Of a stretch of 39,463 bases of DNA, positions 24,483-33,320 are shown piece by piece. The stretch comes from Archaeoglobus sp. JdFR-27. GTDB taxonomy: Archaea > Halobacteriota > Archaeoglobi > Archaeoglobales > Archaeoglobaceae. The notes below the pieces were generated by a model. The model made no database searches and had not been told where the DNA came from. It worked only from the letters and a program-made list of their open reading frames with translations. The stretch lies in the NCBI GenBank assembly GCA_002011235.1, contig MTMO01000053.1, forward strand, positions 1 through 39,463. Reading direction: 5' to 3'. The position numbers and the translations under genes are program-made. Position 1 is the stretch's first letter. Every line of letters begins with the position of its first letter.

Positions 24483-24606
24483 CGTATAACAACTTTTTGT
24501 GTCCGAAGCCGATTGCATATAACGTTTGCTGGTATGCGAAGTTCGAGAGAGGCTTTGCCGAGCATTTGAGTGAGTGCAAGAGAACCGCATACTCGTTGTT
24601 ATACGC
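24483..24606 (-). repeat. attC-like palindromic element A
   Basis: On the minus strand: GCGTATAAC (24598-24606), a short spacer, GTATGCG plus GTTC, a variable centre with the hairpin GGCAAAGCC, GAAC plus two unpaired T, CGCATAC, an 8-base spacer and GTTATATGC (24515-24523). Outer and inner arms pair (9 bp with one G-T; 7 bp perfect), with extra unpaired bases on one side only, as in integron attC sites. A further perfect 11-base inverted repeat, CGTATAACAAC (24483-24493) with its complement (24595-24605), extends the element. It begins 27 bases after the CPBP-like stop. No protein is called across it. Confidence 0.6.
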
Positions 24607-24632
24607 TGTTGTCCATTCATTATTAGACTCAA

Positions 24633-25349
24633 TCAAGACCATAGTATCTTTACTATAAACCATACTTGTCCGTTTATGAGGGTCCATGCAATTATTGGCC
24701 CGATAGAATTTTTTGTATATTTATAGACCAAACCTAACACCAGAAAAATTAAACCAACTTTGGGGGCGTTCCAAACACCTGCAGTAGGGGAAGAAAGGAT
24801 GTGCAAGGCACCAAATATTATAATAGTTAAAATGAGTCCCCATGATAGTACTCTACTCTCGCTCTTAAAAATGCGATCAGTATTGGTGATAAGCCACATG
24901 ACAAAGAAGACCTCCAAAGGACCATAGGCAAATATTCCTAATGCAACATACCAGAGATTCCAAGGGAAATTTAAATGAAAAGTAGGCGAATCAAAATGCG
25001 GTCCTCCAGCCAGAAGTCCGATACAGAAATCAGTTGCAACAATTAAACTTGATAGCAAAAGGGATTTCTCTATTCCTTTACGACTAAGTCCATACAGCTC
25101 AGGATCGTCTTTGCATATGAGTGTGATGACTAAAGGAAACAATCCAACAGACACAAATTCGATATAAAACGCGAGATACCGCCTCTCACCCAATACTTCA
25201 AGTGCTGTTGTGAAATCTAAACCATAAGCTTCTAAAATAATCAGTACAACCAACGCTGCACCAACAAAAAACCATATCCAAGTGGCAATAACTCGAAACA
25301 CGGGGTTATAGAGAAAAGCAAATCTAACATCTTGATTCATTTGTTTCAT
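24633..25349 (-). CDS. CPBP-like polytopic membrane protein, active-site Glu pair lost
   Basis: 238 residues with about eight hydrophobic segments. The overall layout resembles CPBP (Rce1-like) intramembrane proteases: the segment AYGPLEVFFVMWLI stands where the family has GPxxEExxxRG, and GALHILSS where a conserved His helix lies. Only one Glu of the EE pair and no following Arg are present, so protease activity is doubtful. The ATG follows GAGGTGG by four bases. The downstream side carries element A 27 bases after the stop. The gene lies 70 bases from the propeller protein gene upstream on the same strand, perhaps co-transcribed. Confidence 0.65.
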   Translation of the reverse strand: MKQMNQDVRFAFLYNPVFRVIATWIWFFVGAALVVLIILEAYGLDFTTALEVLGERRYLAFYIEFVSVGLFPLVITLICKDDPELYGLSRKGIEKSLLLSSLIVATDFCIGLLAGGPHFDSPTFHLNFPWNLWYVALGIFAYGPLEVFFVMWLITNTDRIFKSESRVLSWGLILTIIIFGALHILSSPTAGVWNAPKVGLIFLVLGLVYKYTKNSIGPIIAWTLINGQVWFIVKILWS

Positions 25350-25419
25350 TTTTCCACCTCTTTATTATCTGAAATTCCCATCCTTTTTTGTGCAAAATGG
25401 GCTCTTTAGCCGAGTGGAA

Positions 25420-26697
25420 TTAGTGTTTTCTTTTCCCAGTTCTTGGAATGACTTCGACGTTTTCAACTTTGAGTTTTAGTTTTTCGGTCAAGATATCAAT
25501 TCGTGTTGCTGAGCCACTTTTTTCCTCCACTTCTACACTCATCCTCTCAAATTTTTCCTCCCCATTCTCCAGCCACTCCCTGCATACTACGGGACTGGCA
25601 AGGTAGATTGTGTCATCTTTTAAATCTAAATCGCCGATAGGACCTTTAAGCAAGTAGAAGTTAATAAGATCACCATTTTCATCAAACACGAAAAGTACAT
25701 AATTGCTCACCCAGGCGATGAATCTTTTTCCGTCTTTTATGATCTTACCTTCCATTACATATTGGCTCTCTGGATAGGTTACGTTTATTATTTTGGCCCA
25801 TAGGATTTCTCCATCTCTGCTCAGTTTGGCTAAGAATGGATGAACTTCTGACTTCCAAAGTGGTAGTTCACGAAAGCGTTCATGAGCAAGCCCCGCAACA
25901 TAAAAATTATCACCGGCATAAATTGCATATAGTTCTACGGAATACTTCGGAAGTTCTTCAAACTCTGGGATTTTCTCTCCTTCTTTCTCTGTCATTTTCC
26001 TCTTTTCTTCTGGGATCTCGACTTTTCTTTTTATCTTTTCTTTAGATTTCAGGGAGATAGCCCATTCAAGCTTACCGTTCTTGCTGAGCTTGATAATTTT
26101 GTCCCCTTTCGTTAAGTATATTCCATCGGACACGGAAATATCATCGTTCAAATCTCCAAATCTAATATTACTTTCACTTTTTAATTTTATAGCCCAAATC
26201 ACATTTAAATCTTCATCAGTTTTCACCACTCCGTCCCTCGTGTTAAAGTAAAGAAACTTTCCATCACTTTCGATGTCAAACACGTTTAGAAAGTCTTCAT
26301 ACTCAACTAGAATAGGATTCTCCCTCGTCCCCTCATAGCTAACCCCCTTTTTCACAAGATCCTTTATCCATACAATCTTACCATTTTCGATCTTGGCAAT
26401 GTCTACACCTGCAGCATAAATCCTTCCGTCAAAGCACTTCAAGATATTTGAAATCCAGAAATCCTCATCAAGCGTCAAATTCCAGCCGTTTATCATTTTA
26501 ATGTATGGAGAACCTCTTTCAGTGCAGTTCTCAATAAATCCAAGTATGTAAATGCCGTTGTTCACAGAAATTTTCCTTCCTTCAATAATCTCGAATCTGT
26601 AGTCTGAGCTTTCAGATTTCATTTTTGAAGATTGGAATACATAAAGACTAGCTGCAAAGATTATTACTATGCATACCAGCAGAAGCGTTCTATTCAC
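25420..26697 (-). CDS. Membrane-anchored beta-propeller-like surface protein, 425 aa
   Basis: An N-terminal anchor (LLLVCIVIIFAASLYVF) is followed by a long extracellular domain with repeated strand patterns typical of PQQ/WD-type propellers: KIENGKIVWIKDL, KTDEDLNVIWAIKL, KLSKNGKLEWAISL and KLSRDGEILWAKII, each about 60-100 residues apart with W near the end. A charged Glu/Lys insertion (about 225-245) interrupts one blade. Function unknown; a surface binding or scaffold role is likely. The start is GTG, with GGAGGTG four bases upstream. Element C (26751-26832) lies 54 bases upstream. A possible transcription link to the CPBP-like gene exists. Confidence 0.75.
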   Translation of the reverse strand: MNRTLLLVCIVIIFAASLYVFQSSKMKSESSDYRFEIIEGRKISVNNGIYILGFIENCTERGSPYIKMINGWNLTLDEDFWISNILKCFDGRIYAAGVDIAKIENGKIVWIKDLVKKGVSYEGTRENPILVEYEDFLNVFDIESDGKFLYFNTRDGVVKTDEDLNVIWAIKLKSESNIRFGDLNDDISVSDGIYLTKGDKIIKLSKNGKLEWAISLKSKEKIKRKVEIPEEKRKMTEKEGEKIPEFEELPKYSVELYAIYAGDNFYVAGLAHERFRELPLWKSEVHPFLAKLSRDGEILWAKIINVTYPESQYVMEGKIIKDGKRFIAWVSNYVLFVFDENGDLINFYLLKGPIGDLDLKDDTIYLASPVVCREWLENGEEKFERMSVEVEEKSGSATRIDILTEKLKLKVENVEVIPRTGKRKH

Positions 26698-26750
26698 CTA
26701 CCACCTCCATTTTAAAATTTTTAAATTTTCCTTGGGCGGACTCGCAATTT

Positions 26751-26832
26751 CAGACAACGCTCGTTTCGGGGATATGTGAAGTTTGCGATAGCAAATTTGG
26801 GCGAGCGAAGTCTTTTACCCGCTGTTATATGC
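26751..26832 (-). repeat. attC-like palindromic element C
   Basis: On the minus strand it opens with GCATATAAC (26824-26832), 16 bases after the stop of the glycosyltransferase-like gene, and closes with GTTGTCTG (26751-26758). Inner parts GCGGG and CCC, the centre CGCCCAAAT and the right block AAACTTCACATATC align with elements A and B, where the block is GAACTTCGCATA(C/T)C. Pairing of the arms is weaker than in A. Length 82 bp. Confidence 0.5.
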
Positions 26833-26847
26833 AGTATGGTAGCAATC

Positions 26848-28179
26848 TTATTTTGCATAATTCGTCTCTAATAAGTTATAAATTTTATGAATACCAATAC
26901 GAAGACCAATAATTGAAAATGGAATTAGAACACAAACATATCGATTAATATCAGATCGAATCAATTCACGCATCTGCGCTGGAGTTTCTGGTACGGTTAC
27001 TGGAATTCCTCCAATATCAATTACTCCTTGACCAATATGATAATACATTATTGGTATCCGCAGGGTATAAAAGATAAGTAAAACAAAGGAGCAAAGACCG
27101 ATTACTTTAAGAATAGAATCATTTGTGGTAACAAGAAATATAAGGCCAGGTACAAGTAATGGAGTCCAAAATAAGACTCCCGATTCTGGGTGTATTAAAT
27201 TTTCAAAGATATATCGCCAATTTAAACCCAGTGTATTAATATCACCTCGCAAAATACCTAAATGTAATGGTACTCCAAATAAAGATATATTATAGATGAC
27301 AAGAATAATAAATGCAACTAAACCGCCAAGAGAAAAAAGTACAAGAAATCTGATTTTTTTAGTGAAAAGAAAATATCCAATTAACAGGATTACCAAAATG
27401 CTGAGTTCAAGCCGAGTTAAAACAAGTAAACCAAGTATAAGGCCTGATGAAATTATATGCCAGGTTTTGTTTGAACGAAAAGATAAGCATGTAAATAATA
27501 AAAAAAGAGAAGCTAAGCCATACGAGGTCAAAGTTGCATAAAGCGGCAAATCAAAAATATTTTTCATAAATATAGGCGCTGTGACTAATGCTGCTGGTAT
27601 AATAAACAGACATTTATATGTTGGATAATACAACTTTAAAACCTTTGCATTAGCCCATATACCTATGAACAAGAAGAAAAAACTAGTTAATAAAAGTGAT
27701 AGTGCTAATTTCCACTGGTACCAGCTACTTTCCGTAGGAATATAAAAATCTTTAAAAAATAAATCTTTTATAAGTAGAGGTTGTGGTGGCAACATCGTCA
27801 TTTCAGAACCTACCGTTTTTTCTGTCCTTTTTATCGTAAGCTCAGGGGATACATATTCACTGATTTTTTCTGTAGTTACGAATGGCTCAACGAGTACTGT
27901 CAATAAAGAATATGGAATAAGTGATAGCAGACTATATCCAGGAGACCGCTGTTCTACAAAATGTAGGTTTCTGACGATTGGTTTTTCTTTTGCAGGTGTT
28001 ACCGACTGCAATATAGCGTAATAATCTACCGAATCAGCGGCAACATTTACTTTAGTTGATGTTGCTATTAAGACAATTAAGATACCTATAGATACGAAAA
28101 ACAGAATATAGTCTAGAAGATTTAATATTCGTGAAGTATATATTTTCTTATCAAATTTGTGCGTCATATTCCCAACCAT
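26848..28179 (-). CDS. Putative GT-C type membrane glycosyltransferase
   Basis: 443 residues from the ATG at 28179; further starts at 28200 (TTG) and 28167 (ATG) are possible. About ten membrane segments. After the first helix a long external loop has AADSVDYYAILQSV, with an Asp in the position used by GT-C (GT39/ArnT-like) enzymes, and RSPGYSLLSLIPYSLL. Later helices carry GLILGLLVLTRLELSILVIL, a pattern also common in such transferases. It probably adds a sugar from a lipid carrier to a surface molecule; the donor is unknown. It is bounded by element B 36 bases upstream of the start and element C 16 bases after the stop, like a one-gene cassette. Confidence 0.6.
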   Translation of the reverse strand: MVGNMTHKFDKKIYTSRILNLLDYILFFVSIGILIVLIATSTKVNVAADSVDYYAILQSVTPAKEKPIVRNLHFVEQRSPGYSLLSLIPYSLLTVLVEPFVTTEKISEYVSPELTIKRTEKTVGSEMTMLPPQPLLIKDLFFKDFYIPTESSWYQWKLALSLLLTSFFFLFIGIWANAKVLKLYYPTYKCLFIIPAALVTAPIFMKNIFDLPLYATLTSYGLASLFLLFTCLSFRSNKTWHIISSGLILGLLVLTRLELSILVILLIGYFLFTKKIRFLVLFSLGGLVAFIILVIYNISLFGVPLHLGILRGDINTLGLNWRYIFENLIHPESGVLFWTPLLVPGLIFLVTTNDSILKVIGLCSFVLLIFYTLRIPIMYYHIGQGVIDIGGIPVTVPETPAQMRELIRSDINRYVCVLIPFSIIGLRIGIHKIYNLLETNYAK

Positions 28180-28214
28180 TATGGTTAGTCTTATATTCAA
28201 TCAGCCGCCATATT

Positions 28215-28301
28215 GCATATAACGGTTTGCAGATATGCGAAGTTCGACATGAAGCCGAATTTGGGTGGAGCGGAGCGTAGCCGTATGTCCGACTGTTAAG
28301 T
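28215..28301 (-). repeat. attC-like palindromic element B
   Basis: Minus-strand order: ACTTAAC (28295-28301; fits RYYYAAC), GTCGGACATACGG, a GC-richer centre with CACCCAAATTCGG, GTCGAACTTCGCATATC, a spacer and GTTATATGC (28215-28223). The right 33 bases align with element A with only a few differences. The arms pair imperfectly (two mismatches in each). It lies between the stop of the broken methyltransferase and the start of the glycosyltransferase-like gene. The next bases (28302-28351) are GC-rich with the hairpin CCCC-gaca-GGGG. Confidence 0.55.
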
Positions 28302-28371
28302 GACCCCGACAGGGGCAAGGTGTGAAGCACCGCAGAGTCCCGAACCCCGCCAAAAGATTCTTTACTCATAT

Positions 28372-28972
28372 CTACCCCTCTCTAAATTTACTCTTGCTCA
28401 TTTGATTGGGCTTTCTAAAGTTTGCGGTATAATTTCTTTTCTTGCCGTAGCTCTCGACGAATTCAAACTCCTGTTTTTCAGCCAACGAACGGACAACCGA
28501 CAGAGGTAAGAAGTCAGGGTCTCCTGGTTGTTCAGTGATGGATAAAAGGCCAGAGGGTCTAAGAACTCTATATATCTCCTTCAGGCACGCTTCTGGGTTT
28601 GAAACCTCACCCAAAACTGCCACAAGAAAAACAACATCGAATTCGTTTGCATCAAAGGGAAGACTGATAGCGTCTCCCTGTGTAAATCCCACATTATCCA
28701 CCCCCGCTGCTTCAAGTTTCCGACGGGTTTTTTCAAGCATCTCTTGTTGCAGGTCGAACAATTCTAAAATGTCCTTGTGGGATGCGTCGTGCAACTTCAA
28801 CGCTAAAGTAACCCGAACCTGGACCTATTTCAAGCACTCGTGAATCCTTTTTAAGATGAAGGCGATCAGCCAGTTTCTGAGGAGAAAGAATGAGCCTGCG
28901 TAAAGGAGAATTTAACCAAAATGATAGCAGAGGTGGATAAGCCCCCTTACCAAAAAACGCTTTATGGTCCCC
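28372..28972 (-). pseudogene. SAM methyltransferase with frameshift and lost start
   Basis: The 5' segment (about 28770-28972) encodes GKGAYPPLLSFWLNSPLRRL, ILSPQKLADRLHLKKDSRVL and motif I EIGPGSGYFSVEVARRIPQG. Then an extra T in the run at 28766-28769 shifts the frame, and the rest continues LELFDLQQEMLEKTRRKLEA, VGFTQGDAISLPFDANEFDV, YRVLRPSGLLSITEQPGDPD to the stop at 28372. It is a close relative of a common bacterial/archaeal class I methyltransferase of unknown substrate. The 5' end meets a TAA at 28973 without a start codon, so it is also truncated next to the inverted CPBP half. Confidence 0.75.
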
Positions 28973-29039
28973 TTATATTCCGTAGAATTTTTACATCTTT
29001 TCCTATTCTGCTTAACCAGAGTTTTCGGTCCAAAAATGA

Positions 29040-29290
29040 CTATTACTTATTCTCGGCGTAATATGGGCTTTGTGGCATCTTCCTCTTTTCTTCATGAAAG
29101 GACAATGGCAGCACGATGTGTTGAAATTTGGCACATTGGATTTCTGGACGTTTATTTTTAGCCCAATCATTCTTTCAATCTTGTTCACATGGATTTACAA
29201 CAACACTAACCGTAGCACTTTATCAGCAATTCTTTTCCATTTCATGATTAATTTTAGTGGGAATCTTATTCCCTTAACCAAACAAGGTAG
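29040..29290 (+). pseudogene. CPBP protease, C-terminal half, inverted relative to its N-terminal half
   Basis: The plus-strand frame opened after the TGA at 29037 reads LLLILGVIWALWHLPLFFMK, then FSPIILSILFTWIYNNTNRS and LSAILFHFMINFSGN. These are the second and third conserved parts of the CPBP (Rce1-like) protease, including the W-H-L-P and FH...N residues. The matching first part (EELGWRG) lies on the minus strand just to the right, ending at the same hairpin (29283-29303). So one gene was split and half of it flipped. There is no start codon of its own. Confidence 0.75.
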
Positions 29291-29303
29291 ACTCTATACC
29301 TTG
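29283..29303. repeat. Inverted repeat at the CPBP inversion joint
   Basis: CAAGGTA (29283-29289) and TACCTTG (29297-29303) are perfect inverted arms with a 7-base loop. The C-terminal half (plus) and the N-terminal half (minus) of the split CPBP gene both run into it. A further partial copy (ATACCTTG) lies at about 29315-29325. The hairpin probably marks or caused the rearrangement. Confidence 0.75.
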
Positions 29304-29826
29304 AAACAAGTGCATTATACCTTGCTTGCAGACCATCCAGGGCATAACCACGCCAACCCAGCTCCTCCGGTAATGGACCATAAAGCAAGATGAAAATTGC
29401 AAATGGAAGAATTCTCCAGGGTTCGAACAACAAATTTTTAGCAGTTTCAAATTCCGGTAAAGGAGAGCCCGCGAAAACACTTAACAGAAGGGCAAGAGCG
29501 TTCAATGCAGGAAAGGTAAGCAAAATCACCAAGAGCCACCTTTTACCAATCCGTCTGATGTCAAATACACGTTGCCAGTAATCTCTCCATTGTTCCTTAT
29601 CGTGGGTGCGGGAAATTAGTATGATTTCTGCTAATGCTGGGCCGAACAGTCCAAAAGCACCAAAAAGTATTGCAGGAAATCTCCAGACATTCCAACCTAA
29701 CAATATAACCCACATCCAGAAAAACCATGAAATACCAAGAGCAAGAGCAAAGAACCTCCATGGGTTTGCAGCTTTTAAAATTCCTGTGTTCATATTATCT
29801 ACCTTTTTCTTTTCTGGATGAGCCAT
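29291..29826 (-). pseudogene. CPBP intramembrane protease, N-terminal half
   Basis: Start ATG at 29826 (or 29793, preceded by AAGGTAGAT). Hydrophobic segments include FFALALGISWFFWMWVILLG, AILFGAFGLFGPALAEIILI and LLVILLTFPALNALALLLSV, then the protease motif PLPEELGWRGYALDGLQARY with the catalytic EE and R. After NALVS the frame enters the inversion joint and ends in unrelated residues (RYRVYLVWLRE, stop at 29266). The remaining helices with the catalytic His are on the other strand at 29040-29290. The product would be inactive. Family role: cleavage or prenyl-type processing in the membrane, often immunity-related in bacteria. Confidence 0.8.
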
Positions 29827-29855
29827 TACAAATCAAAGGCGGGGTTCGGAATTTC

Positions 29856-29876
29856 ATCTAACGGTATGCGAACATA
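29856..29876 (-). repeat. Half attC-like element E
   Basis: Minus-strand GATATGTTCGCATACC immediately followed by GTTAGAT (29856-29862, fits GTTRRRY). TTCGCATACC repeats the inner-arm block of element A, but the long spacer and the left half are missing. It sits just before the start region of the broken CPBP gene, where the right boundary of an element is expected. Confidence 0.4.
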
Positions 29877-29953
29877 TCTTTACTCATCCTTTCTTTTTTA
29901 CCCAGTAATTATTATTTCAAACTTTTCTTTTTTAACTGGTCATAGCGAGTTTT

Positions 29954-30033
29954 GCCTAACATCAGGGATAAAAGAAGTCGCCGAAGGCGATTTGGTGAAA
30001 GCATAGACCTGAACCAGATACATGCTGTTATTT
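29954..30033 (-). repeat. attC-like palindromic element D
   Basis: Minus-strand order: AAATAAC (30027-30033), a spacer, TCAGG, a centre with CACCAAATCGCC and the hairpin GCC-TTC-GGC, CGACTTCTTTTATC, CCTGA, then GTTAGGC (29954-29960), a perfect GTTRRRY core. CCTGA-TGTTA pairs with TAACA and TCAGG on the left, leaving a left-side bulge. The stop codon of the upstream methyltransferase (30028) lies inside AAATAAC, a common arrangement in integron cassettes. Centre and right block align with elements B and C. Confidence 0.5.
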
Positions 30034-30657
30034 GTCGTTGCGATACCTCCTGGCTATTATCCTGTTGACAGCGTGCTTGTGAGGAATGCCACTCGACATA
30101 CAATCGAAGATTTCCTCTGTACAATACACAATCTCCCAGTCCCAGAAATAACCCATCAACTCTCCAGATTTGTAAAGGAAAGCTGTTTCTTCAGCGTCTG
30201 GTGCTCTTGGAATAAACGGCTTCTTCACGAATACAGAAAAAGCAATAATGCCGTTAGGTGAAGTGTGCTCCTTGTAGTTCTGGAAGCGTTTATCTCTTAC
30301 TTCAGGTGGAAGATACTGCAAGGTGCCTGTTGAAAAAATAACATCATAAGTATCTTCAAGCTCATAGGTTACAATGTCAGCATGGATAGTCTCGACGTGA
30401 ACTCCAACTTCCTCAGCATACCTCCTTGTTTTCTCTAGGCCAGGCAGAGACAAGTCGAGGCCAACAACCTCAAAACCATGTTTGGCAAAATAAACAGCAT
30501 TTCTCCCCTCTCCACAACCCAGATCCAGTAGCTTGGGGCGAAAGTCTGAACTGGGTCGAATAATCTCTATGATTCTATCGCATATGGTAGAGGGCTTCTT
30601 TCCCCAATAGTATTCCTGATTTGCATACCTTTTGTCATAAGGGTTCTCCTTCTTCAA
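30028..30657 (-). CDS. Class I SAM-dependent methyltransferase (TehB-like)
   Basis: 209 residues, intact. Motif I is KLLDLGCGEGRNAVYFAKHG, motif II EVVGLDLSLPGLEKTRRYA, motif III IHADIVTYEL and motif IV YDVIFSTGTLQYLPPEVR, as in TehB and tellurite/thiol-type methyltransferases; the substrate is unknown. The start is TTG at 30657, directly after the TAG of a 46-codon ORF and preceded by GGAGGTG six bases away, so the two are translationally linked. Its stop lies inside element D. This is the best-preserved gene of the cassette-like block. Confidence 0.85.
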   Translation of the reverse strand: MKKENPYDKRYANQEYYWGKKPSTICDRIIEIIRPSSDFRPKLLDLGCGEGRNAVYFAKHGFEVVGLDLSLPGLEKTRRYAEEVGVHVETIHADIVTYELEDTYDVIFSTGTLQYLPPEVRDKRFQNYKEHTSPNGIIAFSVFVKKPFIPRAPDAEETAFLYKSGELMGYFWDWEIVYCTEEIFDCMSSGIPHKHAVNRIIARRYRNDK

Positions 30658-30798
30658 CTATCGCACCTCCCTCGAATTGCAGGCAGATAACTCGTCCATA
30701 TTCGAACTATCTGGATATACTGCTATTTTGGGAACATATGCGACATGTTCACACATGCACCCTTCTGGATGACCGAATGTTTCTGCCCTTTCCATCAT
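30658..30798 (-). CDS. Small CxC protein coupled to the methyltransferase, 46 aa
   Basis: Two ATGs at 30798 and 30795 follow AAGGTGA, a good ribosome site. The product has a possible metal- or metalloid-binding cluster, FGHPEGCMCEH, then VAYVPKIAVYPDSSNM and a second Cys near the end. The TAG stop directly abuts the TTG start of the methyltransferase, and its last codons contain that gene's ribosome site. No family recognised. A role as a small partner or substrate-delivery protein of the methyltransferase is only a guess. Confidence 0.55.
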   Translation of the reverse strand: MMERAETFGHPEGCMCEHVAYVPKIAVYPDSSNMDELSACNSREVR

Positions 30799-30838
30799 GG
30801 TTCACCTTCTGTTAAAAAGGTTATCAAAGGGCTTTTTA

Positions 30839-30969
30839 CTACCCCAATTTCACAGCAGGGATCTCAGCTTCTCTTGCCTTTTATAAAGATTATAAAGAGT
30901 TGATTTTCCCATTTTTAAATATTTTTGCAGTCTCCTCAAGGATCATTATAGGAGAACTACTCTCCAACA
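30839..30969 (-). pseudogene. Excisionase-like HTH_17 DNA-binding protein, frameshifted
   Basis: The ATG at 30969 has AAAGGAG eight bases upstream. The first frame gives MLESSSPIMILEETAKIFK. An extra A in a five-A run shifts the frame to MGKSTLYNLYK, and a missing A in AAAA shifts it again to KAREAEIPAVKLG, with the stop at 30839. Joined, this is the Xis/MerR-type pattern (L.EAAK.LKMGKSTLY.L...GEIPAVKLG). Such small HTH proteins usually belong to integrated elements. Both shifts are in A-runs, so sequencing error should be excluded before calling it dead. Confidence 0.65.
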
Positions 30970-31233
30970 TTAGGTTTACTCCTTTTTTGCCTGCTAAAAT
31001 TTACCACCGTTTAACCTCATGTAAATATAGCGAAGGAAAGCAAAAGTTGGTCACATTAAAGAATTTCTCTCTTCCTGAGCGTGGTCAACTCTCATTTTAT
31101 TTTAGAATAAAAGAGACTCTTATTATTCCAGAATAGAAGAAAGATAGAATTTTTGCTCTCTTATAGATGAATTGAAGGAAAGCTTGAAGAAATTTCATAT
31201 TTACTTTGATTTATTTTAAATTACTAATTTATT

Positions 31234-32795: not shown

Positions 32796-33215
32796 ATGAT
32801 GGGGAAAGAAAGCACTACAGTAAAAAACAATAGAATCCTCATTGTAGAAAGTGATGTTGGGATATTGAGGATATTAAAACTCATGCTTACAGAATACGAA
32901 TGCATTTCGGCAAATGATGGCGAAATGGCCGTTCAGCTTTTCATGAAGTTTAGACCTGCATTGGTTTTGGTGGAGATAATACTGCCTAAAATGAGTGGGA
33001 TAGAAGCCACCAAAAAAATTCTTGAAATAGACCCAGACGCTAAAATAATTGGGGTTACTGCCTTCAGAAATAGGTGGGGGAAGGATTTACTCGAAGCTGG
33101 AGCAATTGAATTGATAGATAAACCCTTCAGGAAAAGAGAGCTGCTAGAAATTGTCAAGAAACATCTAAAAAACCAATCAATTGATTGGGTCACCTACTAC
33201 ACTAAAGAAACTTAA
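32796..33215 (+). CDS. CheY-like receiver protein with Glu at the phospho-acceptor site
   Basis: 139 residues from the ATG at 32796 (another ATG follows at once); a TATA-like GTTTATGTA about 28 bases upstream suggests a leaderless start, and the longer frame back to 32682 has no support. It is a single receiver domain: RILIVESDVGILRIL holds the acidic pair, LVLVEIILPKMSG has Glu where the phosphorylated Asp should be, IIGVTAF supplies the conserved Thr and LIDKPFRKREL the Lys. There is no output domain. Glu often mimics the phosphorylated state, so it may be constitutively active or work by protein contact. No histidine kinase is nearby. Confidence 0.85.
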   Translation: MMGKESTTVKNNRILIVESDVGILRILKLMLTEYECISANDGEMAVQLFMKFRPALVLVEIILPKMSGIEATKKILEIDPDAKIIGVTAFRNRWGKDLLEAGAIELIDKPFRKRELLEIVKKHLKNQSIDWVTYYTKET

Positions 33216-33233: not shown

Positions 33234-33320
33234 CGGGCCGGGAGGGATTTGAACCCCCGACCGACGGATCTCTCCGAGGGCTTAAGAGTCCGCTGCTCTG
33301 CCTGGCTGAGCCACCGGCCC
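33234..33320 (-). tRNA. tRNA-Lys(CTT) with 13-nt anticodon-loop intron
   Basis: Reading leftward from 33320: acceptor GGGCCGG, D stem GCTC/GAGC, anticodon stem GCGGA/TCCGT (one G-T pair), anticodon loop CTCTTAA after splicing with CTT at 33284-33286, T stem with TTCAAAT loop, acceptor CCGGCCC and discriminator G at 33234. The exons total 74 nt, a normal size. The intron (33270-33282) lies between loop positions 37 and 38, the canonical archaeal site. CTCT in the exon can pair with AGAG at the intron end to form a short bulge-helix motif for the splicing endonuclease. CCA is not encoded. Confidence 0.92.

Follow-up and report, generated by a model that had tools for sequence, protein, structure and literature searches.

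A probable decayed chromosomal integron in Archaeoglobus, of an archaeal lineage whose recombinase lacks the IntI-specific domain

A contig of Archaeoglobus sp. JdFR-27, analysed here over a stretch of 39,463 nucleotides (the window), carries a row of genes separated by similar elements, which raises the question of whether this archaeon once had an integron and what kind of recombinase served it. Reports of archaeal integrons have so far drawn on MAGs alone and applied the definition used for bacteria: Ghaly et al. (2022; PMC9668308) described them in 75 archaeal MAGs, with IntIs bearing the IntI-specific domain (ICD), and the main text of that paper names no Halobacteriota or Archaeoglobi, an overlap with the attC sites treated here being possible. 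IntegronFinder 2.0, which recognises IntI by the extra domain, is reported to have called neither integrons nor CALIN or In0 elements in the archaeal genomes of RefSeq (PMC9024848). A sequence-only reading of the window had proposed a decaying integron cassette array in an archaeon. Our analyses support this proposal, but not an ordinary bacterial type, since the integrase of its relatives is ICD-less and the attC and attI sites are of their own kind. Considering covariation in the elements, the layout of the array, the attI, the remains of an integrase gene and the exchange of cassettes at G|TT, the region 30997-24516 (minus strand) is very probably a decayed chromosomal integron of an archaeal lineage with an ICD-less recombinase. 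This lineage has members in Archaeoglobi, ANME-1, Methanoperedenaceae-like archaea and others.

All four elements of the sequence-only reading were present on the minus strand, with boundaries now set by a covariance model, and the half copy that it had placed at 29856-29876 is real (Table 1). Element A is also a real site, but its proposed end at 24483 lay 33 bases too far, the R' being GTTATAT at 24523-24517 and not GTTATAC at 24489-24483. The four sites are spaced 1.4-2.1 kb apart and share the layout R'' (NNNTAAC), left arm, CCCAAAT-like centre, ACTTC-like block, right arm and R' (GTTNNNY); a 35-base stretch common to attC A and attC B is 92% alike (E=8e-7 over the own genome). A degenerate pattern built from A, B and the half copy had four matches in 257 Gb of genomes, with about 0.5 expected by chance according to our estimate, and all four are full elements with the layout of the window, hosted by an Ignavibacteriales bacterium, Methanoperedenaceae GB37, a Euryarchaeota MAG and ANME-1. 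No match to two element patterns was detected in viral contigs, and plasmid searches by blastn with elements A, C, L015 and L016 gave no useful match. The sole above-threshold Rfam match in the window was a tRNA gene (33234-33320, minus strand), with the integrase relic lying about 2.2 kb downstream of it.

Table 1. Positions of the recombination sites, the integrase relic and the cassette genes in the window.
Feature	Positions	Strand	Crossover (G of G|TT)	Remarks
Integrase (tyrosine recombinase) relic	30795-30997	minus		both ends kept, catalytic middle gone
attI	30687-30769	minus	30691	adjoins relic downstream; aligned with the attI of L142
Cassette gene 1, TehB-like methyltransferase	30028-30657	minus		Pfam PF03848, E=6e-20
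attC D	29953-30035	minus	29960	R1 55.3 bits, training sequence
Half attC	29851-29880	minus	29862 (G|TT)	right arm and R' only; TTCGCATACCGTTAGATGAAAT
CPBP-type membrane protease, C-terminal part missing	29266-29826	minus		Pfam PF02517, profile positions 2-37 of 93 only
Broken methyltransferase gene before attC B	28372-28800	minus		Pfam PF08241 from profile position 24
attC B	28216-28303	minus	28223	R1 65.2 bits, training sequence
450-aa multi-pass membrane protein, cassette C	26848-28200	minus		75% aa identity to cassette at attI in L159
attC C	26751-26832	minus	26758	R1 51.5 bits, training sequence
425-aa protein, function not assigned, last cassette	25420-26697	minus		ORF; no Pfam match above cut-off
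CPBP-type membrane protease gene	24633-25349	minus		Pfam PF02517, E=4e-6
attC A	24516-24606	minus	24523	R1 73.4 bits, training sequence; last array site

The covariance model (R1), built from the four window attCs and four outside copies, matched these four elements only in the own genome; within the order, 25 of 57 genomes have elements, and within the phylum 92 of 394 (E<=1e-4). In an alignment of 150 matches, whose fitting to the model favours this outcome, 85.1% of stem cells were paired (at most 53% in a sliding control), two-sided changes in the stem numbered 488 versus 200 in shuffles, and the elements formed the imperfect hairpin of attC sites with paired R''/R' and L''/L'. A TT bulge is located in the L' arm, the bottom strand folds more stably than the top (mean z -2.86 versus -2.17), and the R' core is mostly GTTATRY or GTTATCY, with about one third fitting strict GTTRRRY. 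In the A4 consensus, conservation continues past R' as GMAAT and then ends, implying that cassettes begin with a common TTANNYGMAAT. Of 60 pairs of adjacent elements, mostly 0.3-2.7 kb apart, 58 have both members on one strand. An ORF stop precedes 44% of the elements within 50 bp, against 4% when the opposite strand is considered and 6% for random positions. Elements are rarely found inside ORFs of at least 100 aa (6% versus 55% at random), and thus a repeat dispersed outside ORF junctions was not what we observed. The attC identity of the elements gains support from this covariation and layout, together with the adjoining attI and the cassette exchange at G|TT described below.

Arrays of the same attC type (12 elements; L239, L240 and L015) were also detected in an Ignavibacteriales bacterium (G394), in which neither an attI of this archaeal type nor a recombinase of the clade described below was found; in its order, 7 of 116 genomes have elements. 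These bacterial arrays, along with an assembly contamination of 3.9%, might suggest that the contig or the array is bacterial contamination of an archaeal assembly. We consider this extremely unlikely: both flanks of the window match a same-genus genome at 79-82% nucleotide identity, indicating that the contig is archaeal, and closed archaeal chromosomes carry attI and attC arrays. G005, a single contig of 2,076,931 bp, contains one array with three attCs, along with an attI and the remnant of a recombinase, and G009 (1,901,943 bp) carries the locus L051. On the tRNA side, the same-genus match begins at 32826, where that contig ends. An archaeal 16S gene (RF01959) was not found in the own assembly, and its placement therefore relies on kinship and on the flanks.

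The array had further been described as lacking a local integrase. A search of the own genome indeed gave no functional integrase of this type, but there is an integrase locus: directly upstream of the array lie an integrase gene with a deletion and an attI. In the relic, an N-terminal part with a helix-turn-helix start (30997-30845, minus strand) is fused to the C-terminal tail VVKSPLITFLTEGEP (30842-30795, minus strand), which matches by a short KSPL-type motif in the expected place. Using tblastn with the GB37 recombinase L142, the relic was matched at 49% over 51 aa (E=3e-5 in a 4-kb region; the search was repeated over the window). A sequence-only attI model (R2), built from 15 loci with the window left out, recovered the window attI at E=5e-8 in 542 kb, and this was its only match in the own genome (E=2e-7), where no second integrase or second attI was found. 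Two weak matches to the integron integrase profile TIGR02249 in this genome (C22 and C13) are generic. Integrase loss seems to be recurrent, because G005 too keeps only a C-terminal recombinase remnant beside its attI.

We then looked at relatives with intact recombinases. None of the 394 genomes of the phylum has a TIGR02249 match over the cut-off, and the best matches are tyrosine recombinases that skip profile positions ~181-231. Strong matches occur in only 31 of these genomes, several per genome in some, and are linked to arrays. XerA enzymes resolve chromosome dimers at dif, and a XerA-like pattern would place one recombinase in nearly all relatives, which this distribution does not. The recombinases linked to arrays group in a single clade (99/99), with IntI1 and the array-less recombinases outside it, and keep the catalytic R, K, H, R, H and Y. 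The ICD, ~41 residues of IntI1, is absent from the intact members (25 residues where the integron integrase structure 2a3v has 67), and the relic has lost the region. By sequence and fold search, 2a3v is the nearest solved structure, though with low whole-chain TM-scores (0.42-0.50). L003 and L004 were considered as degenerate classical IntIs and ruled out, their alignments showing no ICD. L142, L145 and others have an N-terminal extension, with a helix-turn-helix (PF12728) or an IKxxxGxRWxPxxKYWxxP motif, for which IntI1 showed no counterpart; of this, the helix-turn-helix start is still present in the window relic.

Of the 14 clade recombinases that score above 240 bits and whose contig runs on for more than 1 kb downstream, 12 are followed by same-strand elements, the first 0.4-3.6 kb away, whereas none of 11 more distant recombinases has elements. 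L134 and L115 have an attI and no detected array despite room downstream, and the recombinase relic L050 is divergent from its array. A recombinase on a Chryseobacterium plasmid (L244), which groups with the clade on a long branch, was not accepted as an array integrase, no clear element being found in its region (best E=4.1). In relatives, the attI directly follows the recombinase stop and consists of tandem imperfect palindromes of the TATACGCAATGCGGATATA type, ending in GAACGAG|TTA or CCGAAG|TTA. R2 detected attI in recombinase loci on which it had not been trained and in 0 of 10 control loci.

Comparison of cassettes between loci may provide evidence for how they moved. Cassette C of the window (the 450-aa gene with its attC) is 80% identical over 1475 bp to a segment of L159 in G224, a genome of the same family (f7) as the ANME-1 genome GoMg2, and the match starts right behind attC B and stops right behind attC C. 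The homologue in L159 sits at attI, whereas the window copy follows attC B. Both copies start at the same G|TT, with 29 of the first 40 bases agreeing without gaps, whereas only 12 of the 60 bases before G|TT agree, as expected by chance. A 94% block is common to L051 and L199 (G080, another family); it begins at G|TT, which belongs to attI in one locus and to an attC in the other. L172 of the closed GB37 genome is 98% identical to L175 over 1689 bp, the match having its ends at G|TT, and the upstream site in L172 looks like an attC reduced to R''-R'. MAG-derived assemblies are among the sources of L175, L159 and L199. The matches L142/L190 and L117/L185 were not counted as attC-bounded exchange because they include the attI itself. 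Gene content around the elements differs among relatives, and identical gene order was not found. According to these alignments, cassettes moved as precise units with G|TT at their borders, and the junctions show this to be the crossover point, while the enzyme and strand are what we infer. At L172:7156 (minus strand), a cassette is preceded by GATATAACATA|GTTATAT, which resembles an attC with the stem deleted and R''-R' left.

Such junctions also bear on the view that the elements are not recombination sites but a structured repeat of the dispersed kind, either REP/MITE-like or an RNA element located at the ends of genes. The conserved CCCAAAT and ACTTC exceed canonical attC motifs and single elements do occur outside arrays, as a repeat might. 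However, same-strand arrays lie downstream of one recombinase clade and its attI, and homology blocks have a border precisely at G|TT, past which the sequences are unrelated. The attI-cassette junctions have largely refuted this view, which we consider very unlikely.

In the integron reading, a tyrosine recombinase gene, of which the two ends are left, would once have stood upstream of the attI, and genes each with a downstream attC would have been captured at the attI. Cassettes would be excised and inserted in the manner of classical integrons, attI exchanging strands with a folded attC, and would be exchanged by G|TT recombination of attI with attC or of attC with attC. The ICD-less recombinase presumably performs the recombination and may act on folded single-stranded attC. 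Loss of the integrase would have frozen the array, which is presumably inactive, and genes and sites would now be disappearing. The ICD is held necessary for attC use. That a separate archaeal integron lineage recombines folded attCs with a recombinase devoid of this supposedly essential domain is reasonably likely in our judgement. Besides the absent ICD, points that count against the integron reading are the bulge in L' and not L'', the array-less L134 and L115, the divergent L050, the shortness of the relic match and the partly MAG-derived sources of L175, L159 and L199.

Alternatively, a classical ICD-bearing IntI might act in trans or from passing elements, with the ICD-less recombinase as a bystander. 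ICD-bearing IntIs reported in other archaea and the ability of bacterial IntI1 to recombine archaeal attCs (both according to the main text of PMC9668308) agree with this, but the 394 genomes of the phylum lack any TIGR02249 match over the cut-off, the ICD-less clade is consistently beside attI with cassettes sitting at that attI, and R1 gave no match to the attCs of a class 1 integron. We therefore judge action in trans improbable and favour the ICD-less recombinase as the integrase of these arrays.

The system resembles class 1 and Vibrio integrons (IntI1; IntI4, structure 2a3v) in having an integrase, attI, attC arrays, a G|TT crossover and R''/R' pairing. It differs in the ICD-less integrase, which is co-directional with the array in nearly all loci, in an attI made of tandem palindromes, and in attCs with conserved CCCAAAT and ACTTC motifs, a longer left paired arm, a spacer of 1-2 nt on one side and ~5 on the other, and, relative to class 1 attCs, the bulge in L' rather than L''. 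With the archaeal integrons of Ghaly et al. it shares attC cassette arrays, many without integrase, and an attI that adjoins the integrase and has an insertion point of the same type; those integrons, as presented in the main text, have ICD-bearing IntIs and come from MAGs only, whereas here the integrases are ICD-less and closed genomes carry arrays. Like a CALIN, the window has two or more attCs with under 4 kb between them and no functional integrase, but it still holds an attI and an integrase relic. Intact clade proteins pass the cut-off of NF040815 (XerA, 'tyrosine recombinase/integron integrase'). The IntI insertion is not fully conserved in an integron-like subgroup (Smyshlyaev et al. 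2021, PMC8138268), and neither NF040815 nor, in the part of that paper drawn on here, the subgroup description links ICD-less members to attI or attC arrays. In the integron papers searched, chiefly main texts of openly accessible journal articles, we found no description of ICD-less archaeal integrons, so that priority is uncertain.

This integron type is common in Archaeoglobi and ANME-1, finished genomes included, and its integrase and attC are unlike the targets of standard tools. If our reading is true, the ICD is not required for integrons, and standard searches have missed an integron class that exchanges genes between archaeal families, and possibly also with bacteria via the common attC type. 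It would offer a concrete route of gene exchange among methane-oxidising or sulfate-respiring archaea, and the role of the IntI-specific domain becomes directly testable, with cultured archaeal hosts on offer. As to cargo, the 450-aa membrane protein, earlier named GT-C-like, has no Pfam match.

At least six attI-like sites are present in the closed 1.92-Mb GB37 chromosome (G389:C1; 108522, 282770, 322115/322172, 598145, 1086076 and 1118513), suggesting several integron platforms per genome. Contig breaks within 250 bp of a recombinase number nine downstream (beside L113, L125, L127, L136, L137, L138, L141, L143 and L145) versus one upstream, and the downstream breaks could reflect cassette variation in the population.
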